Shown piece after piece: positions 1 through 4,297 of a stretch of 34,591 nucleotides of DNA. The DNA is from an uncultured Granulosicoccus sp. (lineage in GTDB: Bacteria > Pseudomonadota > Gammaproteobacteria > Granulosicoccales > Granulosicoccaceae). The notes beneath the pieces are model-generated. The model worked only from the letters and a program-made list of their open reading frames with translations. It searched no databases and was not told the DNA's origin. The translations under genes and the position numbers were made by a program. Numbering within the stretch: position 1 is the first letter of the stretch; each line of letters opens with the position of its first letter. The stretch covers positions 1 to 34,591 of the forward strand of contig CALKLO010000069.1 in NCBI GenBank assembly GCA_937991945.1, written 5' to 3'.

Positions 1-183
1 GATGAAATTACTACGGTGCGTATTGTGGGTGCGGATGAAATAGACCCTGCGCTTCGGCACATCAGCATTGATTCGCCACTGGCCAGGGCACTACTAAAGA
101 AACAAGTGGATGATGAGGTATCGATAGTGGTCGATGGGCAAACCAAAGTCTACGAAGTGCTTAGTGTTGCGTATCCCGAATAA
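1..183 (+). CDS. greB: Transcript cleavage factor GreB-like, C-terminal part (partial)
   Basis: Only the last 60 codons are present; the gene enters from the left edge and stops with TAA at 181-183. The visible peptide contains RIVGADEI followed by ISIDSPLARALLKK and VDDEV, which is the FKBP-like C-terminal domain of the GreA/GreB family. The RIVG-DEI and SIDSP-ARALLKK pattern is closer to GreB than to GreA. Gre factors enter the RNA polymerase secondary channel and stimulate cleavage of backtracked transcripts; the coiled-coil N-terminal half that does this lies outside the window. The 3' end overlaps the end of the convergent minus-strand gene by 23 bp. The family is clear; the GreB rather than GreA assignment is a little less so. 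Confidence 0.85.
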   Translation, partial: DEITTVRIVGADEIDPALRHISIDSPLARALLKKQVDDEVSIVVDGQTKVYEVLSVAYPE

Positions 184-1717
184 CGGCAAGGTTAGCTCTA
201 CGCCTGATAGCCACCGATGCGACTAAAAAAGCTAAGCCAATGAGTGTGGTGCTACCGCTTTTTCGTCGCGCAACTCCTGTCTCGTTAACCGTCCATTGAA
301 ACGTAGTCGTTGATTCTGACTGATCATCCAGAGCGGTTATCGTAACTGAGTAGCTTCCCTGAGTGTCGGTGGTTCCGTGCATGTGTCCCTGGCTATTTAG
401 ACTTACACCTGAGGGTAAGCCGCTAGCGGTGTAGAGGATAAGATCACCATTAGCGTCAGTGGCTGTTAGGTTCTCGTGCACAGGATCATCAAGCTTGGTG
501 ATACGATCATCTAGGGGTGTAATCATTGGGGCTTGGTTGGCTTGGTCGCTAATGCCATCTGTACCGGTTAGTACATTACGAGGCTTCATAACAAAGCCAT
601 CCCAATGCGTATGCATGTGACGTTGATCTTCGTTACGTGGGACATGATGGAACGACACTCGGTTCCAAACAACCAGATCTTGATTTTCTATAGATTGGCC
701 GTCCACAAACTGTAGTACGTCATTTAAGCAGTCAGGATTAAAGCGTGCATTTTGACTGGCGAAGCGCTCACAGTCGTTAGCCACGGTGACGAAAAAATCA
801 AAGTCAGTGTGTGGTTCGACATCGATGCGTTGGAACCTATGACCGCTTCTGATCGGTTCGATAACATACGCTGGGCTATCGGTACTTGCGTCTGCCTGGA
901 TAGTCCAATTAACTTGCTCAGTTGGGTTTATGCGTAGCGCTTGCTCAGTTGTAAATTGTTCAACCCGCTGTGCTCGTGTGCCGGCGCTCGTTAATTCATA
1001 GCGTGTTTGGGTAAACACATCATCAACAGCGCTGTCGCCTAAATCGAAATCTAAGCGCCAGTAGTAGCTGTGCGTATGGGAAAGCCATAATGTATCAGGG
1101 TCTCCTTCTAGAACACGACCATAAGGCAGCGAGGTGTCGTCTCCGCTGCGTTGAAGGGCGCCAGTGGCGCCAATGCCGGGTTCCATTGCACCGTTTGCGT
1201 AAAACGTCCAACTGGTTATATACGCATAGGCACCCACTTGAGAGATGGAAAACAAATGCAGGCTTTGTGTTTTAGCTGTCTGGTTGGCTGTCTGAATTCC
1301 GCTTTCAGCGGTGCTTCTCCACTTACACAGAGCGGGGCGGCTTTGGATTATGAGTAGTTCGCCGTCAGGGCAATCTTCGGCTGAAAGCGTTAACAAAAAG
1401 CCTCCACCTAAACCAAACTGGGTGACGTCGTTGTAGGTCACATCGCTGTCATCATAGGCGACGTGCAGTTGGCTAAGTCTTGCTGAGCTGAGAACTCGCA
1501 ATGGCTCACCAGCCGGTGGTGTGTAATGCACATCACTCAATACTAAGTTTTCACGAATGCGCGATTCCCAGCATAAATCCCAGACTGCACCGTTGTCGAA
1601 TTGCTCGGTAATACGAGAGTCGGGGGCGCAGGATGCTTCTTGCGCACTGGCGCTACCGGGAAAAACGATAAATATAATCGCTAGTGATAAAAGAACTCTA
1701 GAGAGTAACCGTGGCAT
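161..1717 (-). CDS. Exported copper-amine-oxidase-like protein with Ig-like domain and C-terminal anchor
   Basis: With the start at 1717 (518 aa) the protein opens with a clean signal peptide (MPRLLSRV, hydrophobic core, ASAQ) only 4 nt after the upstream stop; an in-frame ATG at 1792 would bury that signal. Residues about 35-380 resemble the catalytic domain of copper amine oxidases. A candidate catalytic-base Asp97 sits in YNDVTQFGLGG (family: FDxGEYGLG). The cofactor-tyrosine region is VGAYAYI (family: VGNY[DE]Y), Tyr164. An HxH copper pair, His214/His216, lies in SHTHSYYWRLDFD, and FHHVPRNED near His357/358 could give the third ligand. The Asn and acidic residue flanking the cofactor tyrosine are both Ala. 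After about residue 390 come an Ig-like (He_PIG-type) domain and a C-terminal hydrophobic helix followed by RRR, a likely membrane or sorting anchor. It is the last gene of a three-gene set. Oxidase activity is unproven. Confidence 0.7.
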   Translation of the reverse strand: MPRLLSRVLLSLAIIFIVFPGSASAQEASCAPDSRITEQFDNGAVWDLCWESRIRENLVLSDVHYTPPAGEPLRVLSSARLSQLHVAYDDSDVTYNDVTQFGLGGGFLLTLSAEDCPDGELLIIQSRPALCKWRSTAESGIQTANQTAKTQSLHLFSISQVGAYAYITSWTFYANGAMEPGIGATGALQRSGDDTSLPYGRVLEGDPDTLWLSHTHSYYWRLDFDLGDSAVDDVFTQTRYELTSAGTRAQRVEQFTTEQALRINPTEQVNWTIQADASTDSPAYVIEPIRSGHRFQRIDVEPHTDFDFFVTVANDCERFASQNARFNPDCLNDVLQFVDGQSIENQDLVVWNRVSFHHVPRNEDQRHMHTHWDGFVMKPRNVLTGTDGISDQANQAPMITPLDDRITKLDDPVHENLTATDANGDLILYTASGLPSGVSLNSQGHMHGTTDTQGSYSVTITALDDQSESTTTFQWTVNETGVARRKSGSTTLIGLAFLVASVAIRRRANLAVIRDTQH

Positions 1718-1721
1718 CCGT

Positions 1722-2936
1722 TTATTCCACAACTTCAAAGGGTGATGTAGCCGTCCAGTCGAACGGTAAGAGGTCAAAGCCGATTTGAACATCGCTTAGT
1801 ACAGGCCAATCTTCTATACCGGGTGTGAGTTGTCTGCTTTGGCTGTACCAAAAAACAGGGACTTCATCGGTTAATGACTCTGCGTTAACGTAGTCATTGA
1901 GATGGGCTCCACACGTGCCGTTGTCATTGCTAGTGATATTGCCCGAGGCGTATTGTTCGCAAGCGTCGTAGCGTGTTATCGCGACATCATAGTTGGCCCA
2001 ATCGTATTCATTGCTGGCGTAGCTATAACCTTGATTAGCAGGGTCCATATAGTATCCAGCACCGGTTGTGTCGATGATCCGCCAGCCACGAAATTGTTCG
2101 CGTTCTACCTGCAATAGGGCTTCTTGCGTAATGGGTGTGATTTGCATAGCCCGTCGGTTACCTTGGGCGACGTCTAATGGAAAATCAAATTGTTCTATAC
2201 GATCTGGCGCATCAGTATCCATAGCGGGAACTAGACGCCACGTGGCTAAGACTGAGGCCCGTGTTAAACGAGGTATGTCATTGCGGGCATTTTGTGAAAA
2301 TTGGCTGTCTAGCTGTGTGCGGCTGGGTCGACCAGATACGCTAACGCGAGGACGAATCTGTCCATCTTCTGTGAACGTCCATGAGATGTTCCAAGTAAGC
2401 GATTCACGCAGCATGACGCTATAAACCTCCCATGCCTCACTTTGAAGGCTAGGGGTTTGACCAAACTTTGCCAATATGCGGTTATTTTTTATTCGTGAGC
2501 AAAATGAATCTGGTTGAGCATCGGTACCCAGTATTTCGCCATCACAGGTTCTCTCGTTAAGCCTTAACGTTTGTGACGGCACGCTGTCATCTGTGTCGCT
2601 ATCGGATGGCGAAAACTGAGGCTCGGCGTTTGCCTTATCGTGATAGTGCAACAATATTTGTGCAACGTTCACTGATGCCATAACTGAGCGACTAGAGTCG
2701 CCTGGTGCACGGTAGGCAATGTGTGAGACTTCCAAGCCGTGAACCTCACTAACGTGTGCGCAAGCAGACCAAGACGCACCCGATGCAAACGTGTGTTGCA
2801 AAACGGATGCATCGTTGCAATCAGTGTCTTGTGCTCTGGCGCTTTGTCCAATGAACAGGCTCACGATGACAAGCAAAAATGGGGTTAGCCATAAAAGCTT
2901 GAAAGCAGGAAGTGCTGTATGCGTCTTGTTCTTCAT
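1722..2936 (-). CDS. Exported copper-amine-oxidase-like protein lacking catalytic residues
   Basis: This 404-aa protein has an N-terminal signal peptide ending near ARAQ (residue 36). It aligns by eye with the neighbouring copper-amine-oxidase-like protein through several shared blocks: an HGLEVSHIAYRAP segment (family GLVLhdV.Y), SWTFTEDGQI (family W.F..DG.I), ATWRL, an NYDVAITRYDACEQYASGN stretch, and IEDWPVL near the end (family EDwPvMP). At the cofactor position the motif reads ESLTW instead of GNY[DE]Y, so the tyrosine is replaced (about Leu180). The HxH copper pair is replaced by Ala227/Val229, and the third-ligand region reads RQLTPGIED without His. It is therefore probably a non-catalytic partner or pseudoenzyme. 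The start codon overlaps the stop of the upstream gene (ATGA, 2933-2936), and the downstream gene begins 4 nt after its stop, so the three are likely translated together. Confidence 0.7.
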   Translation of the reverse strand: MKNKTHTALPAFKLLWLTPFLLVIVSLFIGQSARAQDTDCNDASVLQHTFASGASWSACAHVSEVHGLEVSHIAYRAPGDSSRSVMASVNVAQILLHYHDKANAEPQFSPSDSDTDDSVPSQTLRLNERTCDGEILGTDAQPDSFCSRIKNNRILAKFGQTPSLQSEAWEVYSVMLRESLTWNISWTFTEDGQIRPRVSVSGRPSRTQLDSQFSQNARNDIPRLTRASVLATWRLVPAMDTDAPDRIEQFDFPLDVAQGNRRAMQITPITQEALLQVEREQFRGWRIIDTTGAGYYMDPANQGYSYASNEYDWANYDVAITRYDACEQYASGNITSNDNGTCGAHLNDYVNAESLTDEVPVFWYSQSRQLTPGIEDWPVLSDVQIGFDLLPFDWTATSPFEVVE

Positions 2937-3652
2937 TGTGAGGTAAGAAGGGTTACGCTCATTGCTGACAAGTTAACTATGGGTTCAGCGGCAAACACAG
3001 TGTTGGTTTGATCAAAAAGAGACACCAATGCACATCGTTGTGTGCGGCAAGGGTGTTCGGCCTTTAGTGGTTCGTAAATACTCGCTTTCAAATCCAATTC
3101 CTTAATGGATACGAAAGGCTCTGGAGTTCGCCGAGCATGCTCTTGTTTGAGCAGCTGAAGTAATTCGGTATCTTGCGCGATGAGGGAAAGGGCGAAGTCA
3201 ATTTCCACATCGTTGAGAGGTAAATGCACAGACTCAATAGAGGATTGTTTTACGATTGCGTTCTCTTGCAAATCCATAACCAGCAATCGAGTGGTCTGCG
3301 CTGCATAGTTGTACTGATAGACATTTATCCATCGGACATCGAGCTGGTTTTTTCGTTCCTGCTTTTCAATGCTCAGGGTTTGTGCGCCAAGGGGATGTTC
3401 AATGGCGCGTGTGCGGGCCGTGGGCCAAGGAACGGTGGAGGCTGTAGCTGCGACTGTCGCTTGCTGGCTCAACGATAAACCAGCGGCATGAGCCTGATTC
3501 AAGGACGCAAGAGCACAGATTGCAACTGGCAGCGCCACTAGGCAATGCGAGGCCATTAGCGAGCGCATCTTGGAGAGGATGCCTGAAATAGCGGGTCCAC
3601 TGATAATTGAATGAAGTTTAGTCATAATGTTGGCTATGATACGGTGCATCAT
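2933..3652 (-). CDS. Exported protein resembling copper amine oxidase N2/N3 domains
   Basis: The longest reading gives 239 aa. A signal peptide with the core CLVALPVAICALASLNQAHA suggests that translation may begin at an internal ATG (3625, 3568 or 3556); no ribosome binding site decides between them. The mature part has VRWINVYQYNYAAQTTRLLVMDL (about residues 106-128), like the N2 domain pattern 'R.a.v.vydy.t.kt.e.vVDL' of copper amine oxidases. It ends with a segment containing FAAEPIVNLSAMSVTLL, like the N3 pattern 'YA.PIeGl...vDLnaM.V'. No catalytic domain follows; two catalytic-domain-like proteins are encoded immediately downstream with an ATGA overlap. The reading as a split-off N-terminal region is an inference from spaced motif similarity. 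The 5' end overlaps the upstream region of the divergent cyclotransferase-like gene. Confidence 0.55.
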   Translation of the reverse strand: MMHRIIANIMTKLHSIISGPAISGILSKMRSLMASHCLVALPVAICALASLNQAHAAGLSLSQQATVAATASTVPWPTARTRAIEHPLGAQTLSIEKQERKNQLDVRWINVYQYNYAAQTTRLLVMDLQENAIVKQSSIESVHLPLNDVEIDFALSLIAQDTELLQLLKQEHARRTPEPFVSIKELDLKASIYEPLKAEHPCRTQRCALVSLFDQTNTVFAAEPIVNLSAMSVTLLTSQ

Positions 3653-3697
3653 GCGTACCGGCCTGTTACCTCTTTCTCATCTAATTGTGTCTTATTC

Positions 3698-4297
3698 ATG
3701 ACATCTGACTGGATCTACTATTTTGGATATGGTTCCCTTGTGAACCGTGACACACGTCCCGCTGGCGAATTTGCGCAAAGCGCTCATTTGACGGGTTGGC
3801 ACCGAGTCTGGGAGCATCGAACCGCTGATAAAGAGCGTCAGCAGCAGTGCACATCACTGAGTATAGAGCCTATAAAATTGCCTGAAGGCGGTGGTATCGA
3901 TGGCGTTATCGCTCGTATACCCGCATCGATGTTGGACGAGCTGGATCTTCGAGAGTCTGGTTACGAGCGTTTGAGCTTGCCTATCGGTGATTTCGAACTG
4001 ACGACTGACATCGATTCAGACACTATATTTGTATATCGCAGCTTGCCACAAAACCGATTTCTGGCGGATGTAAAGCAACCAATTTTACAATCTTACATAG
4101 ACTGCGTTTTAGCTGGCTATCAAAACCGATTTGGCGATGTCGGCATGCGCACCATGATTGAGTCGACCAGAGGCTGGGATCGGCCAATATTGAATGATCG
4201 GCAAGCACCGCATTACCCTCGGTGGGTAACGATTGACCCGGGGTTGCAAGCTCAGATCGATCAACACATGGATGCGCTGCCAAATACGCAAATCTAG
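3698..4297 (+). CDS. Gamma-glutamylcyclotransferase-like protein
   Basis: The chosen ATG at 3698 gives 199 aa and puts the diagnostic YYFGYGSLVN motif at residues 6-15, as usual for this fold; the upstream in-frame ATG at 3611 would add 29 residues of no family character and overlap the divergent gene. YGSL forms the substrate-binding loop of AIG2/GGCT/ChaC proteins. LDLRESGYERL (about residues 85-95) fits the region that supplies the catalytic glutamate in the family. Such enzymes release 5-oxoproline from gamma-glutamyl peptides or amines; the substrate here cannot be told. It lies divergently from the amine-oxidase-like set and just upstream of a DUF3581 gene on the same strand. Confidence 0.75.
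   Translation: MTSDWIYYFGYGSLVNRDTRPAGEFAQSAHLTGWHRVWEHRTADKERQQQCTSLSIEPIKLPEGGGIDGVIARIPASMLDELDLRESGYERLSLPIGDFELTTDIDSDTIFVYRSLPQNRFLADVKQPILQSYIDCVLAGYQNRFGDVGMRTMIESTRGWDRPILNDRQAPHYPRWVTIDPGLQAQIDQHMDALPNTQI

Follow-up and report, generated by a model that had tools for sequence, protein, structure and literature searches.

A candidate split copper amine oxidase encoded by three coupled genes in an uncultured Granulosicoccus sp.

In this work, a stretch of 34,591 nucleotides (nt; further referred to as the window), which is contig 69 of the 3.8-Mb genome of an uncultured Granulosicoccus sp., was analyzed with respect to three coupled genes, named C, B and A, placed in this order (5' to 3') on its minus strand. 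We propose, with a probability of roughly 0.6, that their products combine as subunits in a split, exported copper amine oxidase (CuAO), in which A would be the enzyme, C would supply the D2-D3 domains in trans and B would be a catalytically dead partner. Gene C (2933..3652) encodes a protein of 239 aa, in which a signal-peptide-like N-terminus is followed by CuAO D2-D3-like domains (residues 57-239); gene B (1722..2936) encodes a 404-aa homolog of the catalytic domain (D4) without the base, the cofactor Tyr and the copper ligands; and gene A (161..1717) encodes a 518-aa D4 homolog with an intact active-site set, an immunoglobulin (Ig)-like domain and a C-terminal tail. The initial annotation of this DNA had described three coupled genes for exported proteins, and the open reading frames (ORFs) were indeed found at the places it gave: the C/B junction is an ATGA overlap, 4 nt separate the stop codon of B from the ATG of A, and a signal-peptide-like stretch closing with an AxA motif was recognized by eye at the N-terminus of each protein. 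Gene A is counted here from the ATG at 1717, while the mechanically called ORF opens at an in-frame ATG at 1792. In the window's genome, A and B are the only matches of the Pfam family PF01179 (Cu_amine_oxid) at an E-value of 0.001, and no single-chain CuAO was found there at this threshold.

Homology, predicted folds and active-site residues

The Pfam family PF01179, whose cut-off is 27 bits, matched A at 2e-29 (103.2 bits) and B at 2.1e-17 (63.6 bits), as well as all 48 of the B homologs scanned. In a profile-profile comparison (hhalign) with ten single-chain CuAOs, residues 46-391 of A were covered with a probability of 100 and residues 42-404 of B with a probability of 99.9. The AlphaFold2 model of A (pLDDT 86) was superposed with VIA on the Arthrobacter globiformis amine oxidase (AGAO) with a Z value of 35.1 over 345 residues, at a root-mean-square deviation (rmsd) of 2.6, and all 50 matches listed in a fold search with this model were CuAOs, including a Pichia enzyme called lysyl oxidase. 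The assignment of both A and B as catalytic-domain homologs, made in the initial annotation, is in agreement with these data. An absence of amine-oxidase matches, or unrelated folds, which had been named there as grounds for abandoning the idea, was not what was observed: Pfam matches were obtained for A and B, and CuAO-like folds were predicted for A and C.

Residues were counted in an alignment of 62 A proteins, 53 B proteins and 10 single-chain CuAOs, in which the Chloroflexota are represented by seven of their nine split A proteins (those of L189 and L191 were left out). Also left out were a row labeled canonical, which turned out to be a wrong ORF (L114; absent from the tree and the profile comparison as well), and the B of L106, whose gene is interrupted by a run of N, while two A proteins at contig ends (L070 and L072) and one partial B (L055) were omitted from both the residue counts and the tree described below. 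Two single-chain rows are cut (L116, 549 aa, and L168, at a contig end). The complete set of Asp97, Tyr164, His214, His216 and His358 is present in 62/62 A proteins and in 10/10 single-chain CuAOs. Asp97 (1427..1429, minus strand, as are all residues given below) corresponds to the catalytic base AGAO Asp298 and is aligned with the base Asp of the single-chain enzymes; Tyr164 (1226..1228) corresponds to the topaquinone precursor AGAO Tyr382, albeit within the motif G-A-Y-A-Y, not G-N-Y-D/E-Y; His214-x-His216 (1070..1078) are the equivalents of two copper ligands, for which we take AGAO His431 to be a counterpart; and His358 (644..646) is the equivalent of the third ligand, AGAO His592. The numbering of the first four residues proposed initially was thus reproduced, and of the His357/His358 pair offered for the third ligand the alignment selected His358, since position 357 is Tyr in 8/62 A proteins.

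Two further positions of A deserve mention. Tyr88 (1454..1456), present in 62/62 A proteins, is by alignment the equivalent of AGAO Tyr284 (at this place A was aligned with the single-chain CuAOs and B with AGAO), a residue reported to form a hydrogen bond with the quinone (PMC9491219). His371 (605..607) occurs in 61/62 A proteins and in 0/10 single-chain CuAOs.

In the B proteins the active site has decayed. None of the five residues is kept in 46 of the 53 sequences, one is kept in six and two in one, so the full set occurs in 0/53; counted by position, Asp and either His of the HxH pair are found in none, His358 in seven and Tyr in one, which bears out the earlier description of B as a homolog devoid of cofactor and copper residues. 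Six Cys residues are common to A (61-62/62) and B (52-53/53), two of which are usual in the single-chain set (9/10 each) and a third of which occurs in 5/10. As the PF01179 scores of A and B are above the cut-off, and the residues of A align with those of CuAOs in the profile and in 62/62 sequences, the active-site set is not a chance resemblance. Moreover, the residues directly involved in catalysis and metal binding, like the Tyr284 equivalent, persist in every A over great divergence and are lost in B, which suggests that they are selected in A.

The assignment of C to the D2-D3 region is based on its predicted fold and on profile-profile comparison. The AlphaFold2 model has a mean pLDDT of 88, with ten-residue blocks at 84-98 from residue 61 onward. 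In a Foldseek search with this model all 50 matches listed were CuAOs, 44 of them at an E-value of 0.001 or better. In VIA, residues 57-239 of C were placed on residues 98-281 of the Escherichia coli amine oxidase (ECAO; Z 9.5, 162 residues, rmsd 3.8) and on residues 13-192 of AGAO (Z 7.5-8.6), stretches which correspond to D2-D3 by the domain limits of the two enzymes. These Z values are modest, and proteins bearing other names reached up to Z 7.9 over a single domain of 61 residues, whereas the CuAO matches comprised 156-166 aligned residues spanning both front domains. The hhalign comparison of C with the ten single-chain CuAOs gave 96.7% over residues 54-169 (E 3.6e-10, single target). Since both domains are covered and the profiles match, C was assigned to D2-D3, as had been suggested initially for the N2/N3 region, which places the cut between C and A near the D3/D4 boundary. 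The AGAO-like N2 family of Pfam was matched by 4 of 48 C homologs (best 5.5e-4; the window's C was not among them), and it is the only family with more than one member among those shown for these homologs. Each of the remaining families shown (24 of 32 others) has a single member, and these matches were set aside as looking like chance.

Gene order, distribution and history

The conserved three-gene neighborhood that the initial annotation had suggested searching for does exist. The order C-B-A on one strand was found in 45 of 50 gammaproteobacterial loci (a number that includes paralogous sets of one genome, and in which B was told from A by scores), and the remaining five loci lie at contig ends. 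For the longest ORFs, the C-B joint is -4 nt in 23/45 loci and the B-A joint likewise in 23/45, while in 42/45 each joint is at most 20 nt, overlaps included.

This recurrence bears on the trivial explanation, i.e., that one single-chain CuAO gene was broken by frameshifts or by faulty assembly. Most of the relatives do come from metagenome assemblies (37 of 40 titles begin with MAG). However, none of the three pieces lacks a start and a signal-peptide-like N-terminus of its own, one and the same domain is present twice, in B and in A, purifying selection was detected, and the arrangement recurs, also in a 7.8-Mb genome contained in a single contig (locus L039 of genome G020). For this recurrence across loci we rejected the artefact, which we regard as extremely improbable.

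In the samples surveyed, the split system is common within one family and rare outside it. Among 48 genomes of the same order searched with A, 37 gave a match and, by our reading, 31 of them a split A (in G023 only as a fragment at a contig end); in the other six the match was due to Ig domains, to single-chain CuAOs or, in G011, to a short piece whose kind is unclear. In the three wider surveys that follow, the first few candidates per genome (4 to 7) were scored. Among 369 gammaproteobacterial genomes, six matched A at 1e-20, three of them with a split system. The profile of C, applied to 398 genomes of the window's phylum, detected at 1e-6 the window's own genome only. Of 301 Chloroflexota genomes, 18 matched and nine are split, the other nine having frames of 652-720 aa, two of which were inspected. 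The named relatives belong to Granulosicoccus, Granulosicoccaceae, Pseudomonadales, a Methylomonas assembly, unplaced Gammaproteobacteria, Caldilineaceae and Herpetosiphonaceae.

In G121 a C-B-A set and a lone A accompany a B-A-C-B-A array, and in G420 a C-B-A set occurs together with a lone A. Within Granulosicoccaceae a second, paralogous C-B-A set was also noticed (L051:2633-5504, L057:6707-9648 and L066:2525-5373). It lies next to a protein of some 770 aa that looks secreted, with related ORFs in eight loci and with SdrD_B and Big_9 domains in the two that were scanned, and in six loci a small lipoprotein-like ORF, FKBP-like by eye and without a Pfam match, adjoins it. Either of them is a possible substrate or partner.

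A maximum-likelihood tree of 125 D4 domains (of the quick kind, without bootstrap) has two fully supported branches in this respect, one setting off the single-chain enzymes and one setting off the B proteins. With the single-chain enzymes as the outgroup, B forms one clade nested among the A proteins, with a branch support of 98 and 84 at the nearest joint. It fits a history in which the enzyme was split into C and A, A was duplicated and one of the copies decayed to B. Of the split A proteins, that of L195:3920-6138 branches nearest to the single-chain enzymes; the adjoining C scored 44 bits with the C profile and has, by eye, a lipobox-like signal.

In the pairs for which a value was obtained, all three genes show purifying selection. 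For B, dN/dS was 0.12, 0.08 and 0.18 in three of six pairs; two pairs, the window's own included, gave no value for B because of saturated synonymous sites, and one pair lacks B. The distances among B and among A proteins are correlated (r 0.90 over 50 loci, a value reached by 0/2000 permutations; 0.81 over 18 chosen loci), with B changing about 1.7 times faster than A.

A proposed heteromeric enzyme and the points weighing against it

According to the proposed reading, C, B and A would assemble outside the cytoplasm. A would fold as a CuAO catalytic domain with copper bound by His214, His216 and His358, its Tyr164 would be processed to a topaquinone-like cofactor, and, with Asp97 as the base, it would convert primary amines to aldehyde, ammonia and H2O2. 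Binding A, and perhaps B, in trans, C would take the place of D2-D3, domains that normally precede D4 within one chain, and B, as a duplicated, catalytically dead copy of A, would fill the position of the second D4 protomer, so that the unit would be an A/B pair with C instead of a homodimer.

CuAOs are described as homodimers of a single chain, and the communication of one site with the other is a matter of continuing debate (PMC4497604), and those structurally characterized up to 2012 were all called homodimeric (PMC3382800). An AGAO dimer engineered so that one protomer is dead (Y382F) is reported to keep the activity of the other, with a kcat of 65.5 per dimer versus 129.5 per second for the wild type (PMC4497604), which indicates that an active/dead pair can work. 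The proposed A/B dimer would resemble it in having one active and one cofactor-less protomer; that dimer, however, is a laboratory product of one single-chain gene, while B has a gene of its own, which has diverged and is co-inherited. In CuAOs, the arms of D4 reach the partner protomer and form part of its active-site wall (PMC3382800), and B may therefore complete the site of A. More tentatively, we consider that this may be a naturally heteromeric CuAO with a separate front-domain subunit and an obligate live/dead pair, making its quinone without the flanking Asn and Asp/Glu that are regarded as necessary, perhaps with the help of B, C or His371. Judging from titles and the beginnings of abstracts, no natural split or heteromeric CuAO was found in the open-licence literature.

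Compared with the topaquinone CuAOs (AGAO and TynA/ECAO), the system shares the D4 fold, the base Asp, the cofactor Tyr, the three copper His, the Tyr284 equivalent, Met368 and the D2-D3-like domains. It differs in having three chains for one, a dead second D4 copy, D2-D3 in a separate protein, no Asn before and no Asp/Glu after the cofactor Tyr, extra conserved Cys, His371, the Ig domain and the C-terminal tail. Two features of membership among CuAOs, i.e., D2-D4 in one chain and the Asn-Tyr-Asp/Glu motif, are therefore missing here.

Several observations weigh against the proposed reading, and they concern C, the dimer, the necessity of B and the chemistry of A. The window's C taken alone gave no amine-oxidase match in Pfam (CYYR1 was matched, at 0.19) and matched the NCBIfam primary-amine-oxidase model at 0.024, and in a search of PDB sequences with a profile of C AGAO was found at an E-value of 0.1 over residues 54-126, below an unrelated transporter protein (0.045). 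As the single-sequence searches are nearly empty, the case for C is carried by the fold and by the profile-profile comparison. In the profile alignment, A has a gap of about 12 residues relative to the single-chain CuAOs, at a place that we take to be the dimer-arm hairpin, and if the arm is shorter, a dimer of the canonical kind could be weakened. That A and B are inherited together, as reflected in their distances, is expected of neighboring genes and does not prove their contact.

The nine split loci of Chloroflexota consist of C and A without B, which means that B is dispensable in some relatives. In addition, two gammaproteobacterial A genes (L165:7041-8420 and L197:111-1712), from genomes with a C-B-A set as well, have no B or C nearby. 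Both facts speak for the alternative in which A and C alone constitute the enzyme as an A2C2 heterotetramer, presumably the situation in Chloroflexota, and B is a separate secreted protein, e.g., a regulator, a copper-loading chaperone or a binding protein. It would also be consistent with the retention of fold-related residues in B, such as the six Cys, in spite of its faster change. On the other hand, B stands between C and A in 45/45 gammaproteobacterial loci showing all three genes, often with the -4 nt overlaps, and B is a homolog of precisely that domain whose arms reach the partner protomer (PMC3382800). For these reasons, we consider the A2C2 enzyme rather unlikely as an explanation and prefer an enzyme composed of A, B and C. 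The Chloroflexota relatives (that of Herpetosiphonaceae, L110, and others) share the D3/D4 split and the active-site set with the window's system and mostly have the motif G-A-Y-N-Y, but lack B, and the A of L110 ends after D4, with neither the Ig domain nor the tail. Within Caldilineaceae, locus L105 is C-A without B, while L106 is C-B-A, with the run of N inside B mentioned above.

The strongest result against simple CuAO chemistry is the loss of the residues flanking the cofactor Tyr. The CuAO consensus there is given as Asn-Tyr-Asp/Glu (PMC3382800), and in the single-chain set Asn precedes Tyr in 10/10 and Asp/Glu follows it in 9/10. In contrast, none of the 62 A proteins has Asn before the Tyr (Ala in 42, Ser in 15, other residues in five) or Asp/Glu after it. 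The AGAO mutant with the same Asn-to-Ala change (N381A; PDB 7wir, 7wis) is reported to make topaquinone still, at 1/180 of the rate and with a kcat of 1/160 (PMC9491219), and the corresponding change in HPAO yields 5-10% topaquinone, while in HPAO Glu406Gln its formation is slower by an order of magnitude (PMC3382800). What is a crippled mutant there is a fixed natural state here. Together with the new His371, this loss would suit a protein that is not an amine oxidase, i.e., one that binds copper and perhaps modifies the Tyr, and which performs another oxidation or serves as a structural or adhesive surface protein. Ten long relatives were scanned, and in several of them A is fused to Ig, TSP3, F5/8C, PKD or cadherin-like domains, which would suit such a protein as well. 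However, no A protein has lost the residues of catalysis and metal binding or the Tyr284 equivalent, whereas B has lost them, and we regard a non-oxidase role as improbable, more so than the A2C2 enzyme, and retain the split CuAO as the preferred reading.

If the natural active/dead pair is real, it would reveal the purpose of the second protomer. The family-wide change beside the cofactor Tyr makes it testable which flanking residues self-processing really needs, and the C-A and C-B-A series may document, in living genomes, how the splitting of a homodimeric enzyme can be followed by duplication and decay to give a heteromer.

The tail of A and the neighboring genes

Downstream of D4, A contains an Ig-like He_PIG domain (residues 406-478; 284..502; Pfam 1.5e-10) and a C-terminal tail (residues 486-518; 164..262) composed of a Ser/Gly stretch, a hydrophobic stretch and Arg-Arg-Arg, which is a candidate rhombosortase sorting signal. 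With our own loose pattern, such a tail was found in 35/53 A proteins. The GlyGly-CTERM model TIGR03501 did not match the window's A and matched 1 of 50 A homologs, at 0.023. The rhombosortase model TIGR03902 scored 146.8 bits in the window's genome (cut-off 84) and was above the cut-off in 15 of 19 listed genomes, among them the window's own and the 11 others of the genus in that list, whereas in 14 control genomes only weak matches were obtained, all of them below it. The tail of A and the presence of a rhombosortase make surface display likely, and the Ig domain and tail of the Granulosicoccus A probably hold the complex at the cell surface. The long C-terminal TSP3, F5/8C, PKD and cadherin-like regions of the relatives mentioned above likewise speak for an exported protein.

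The genes adjoining the window's cluster gave no clue to the substrate. Its neighbors are a Pfam-less ORF, a DUF3581 protein and a helicase-like ORF (the last recognized by eye), which recur in 24-26 of 62 loci; going by the loci listed, these belong to Granulosicoccaceae. A Pfam-less ORF lies upstream of C at 3611-4297, divergently oriented, with related ORFs in 26/62 loci. At the other end, positions 1-183 of the plus strand resemble, by eye, the C-terminal end of a GreA/GreB-type protein, in convergent overlap with the end of A. In the Herpetosiphonaceae locus L110, the neighbors are two peptidases and a protein of the beta-lactamase fold.

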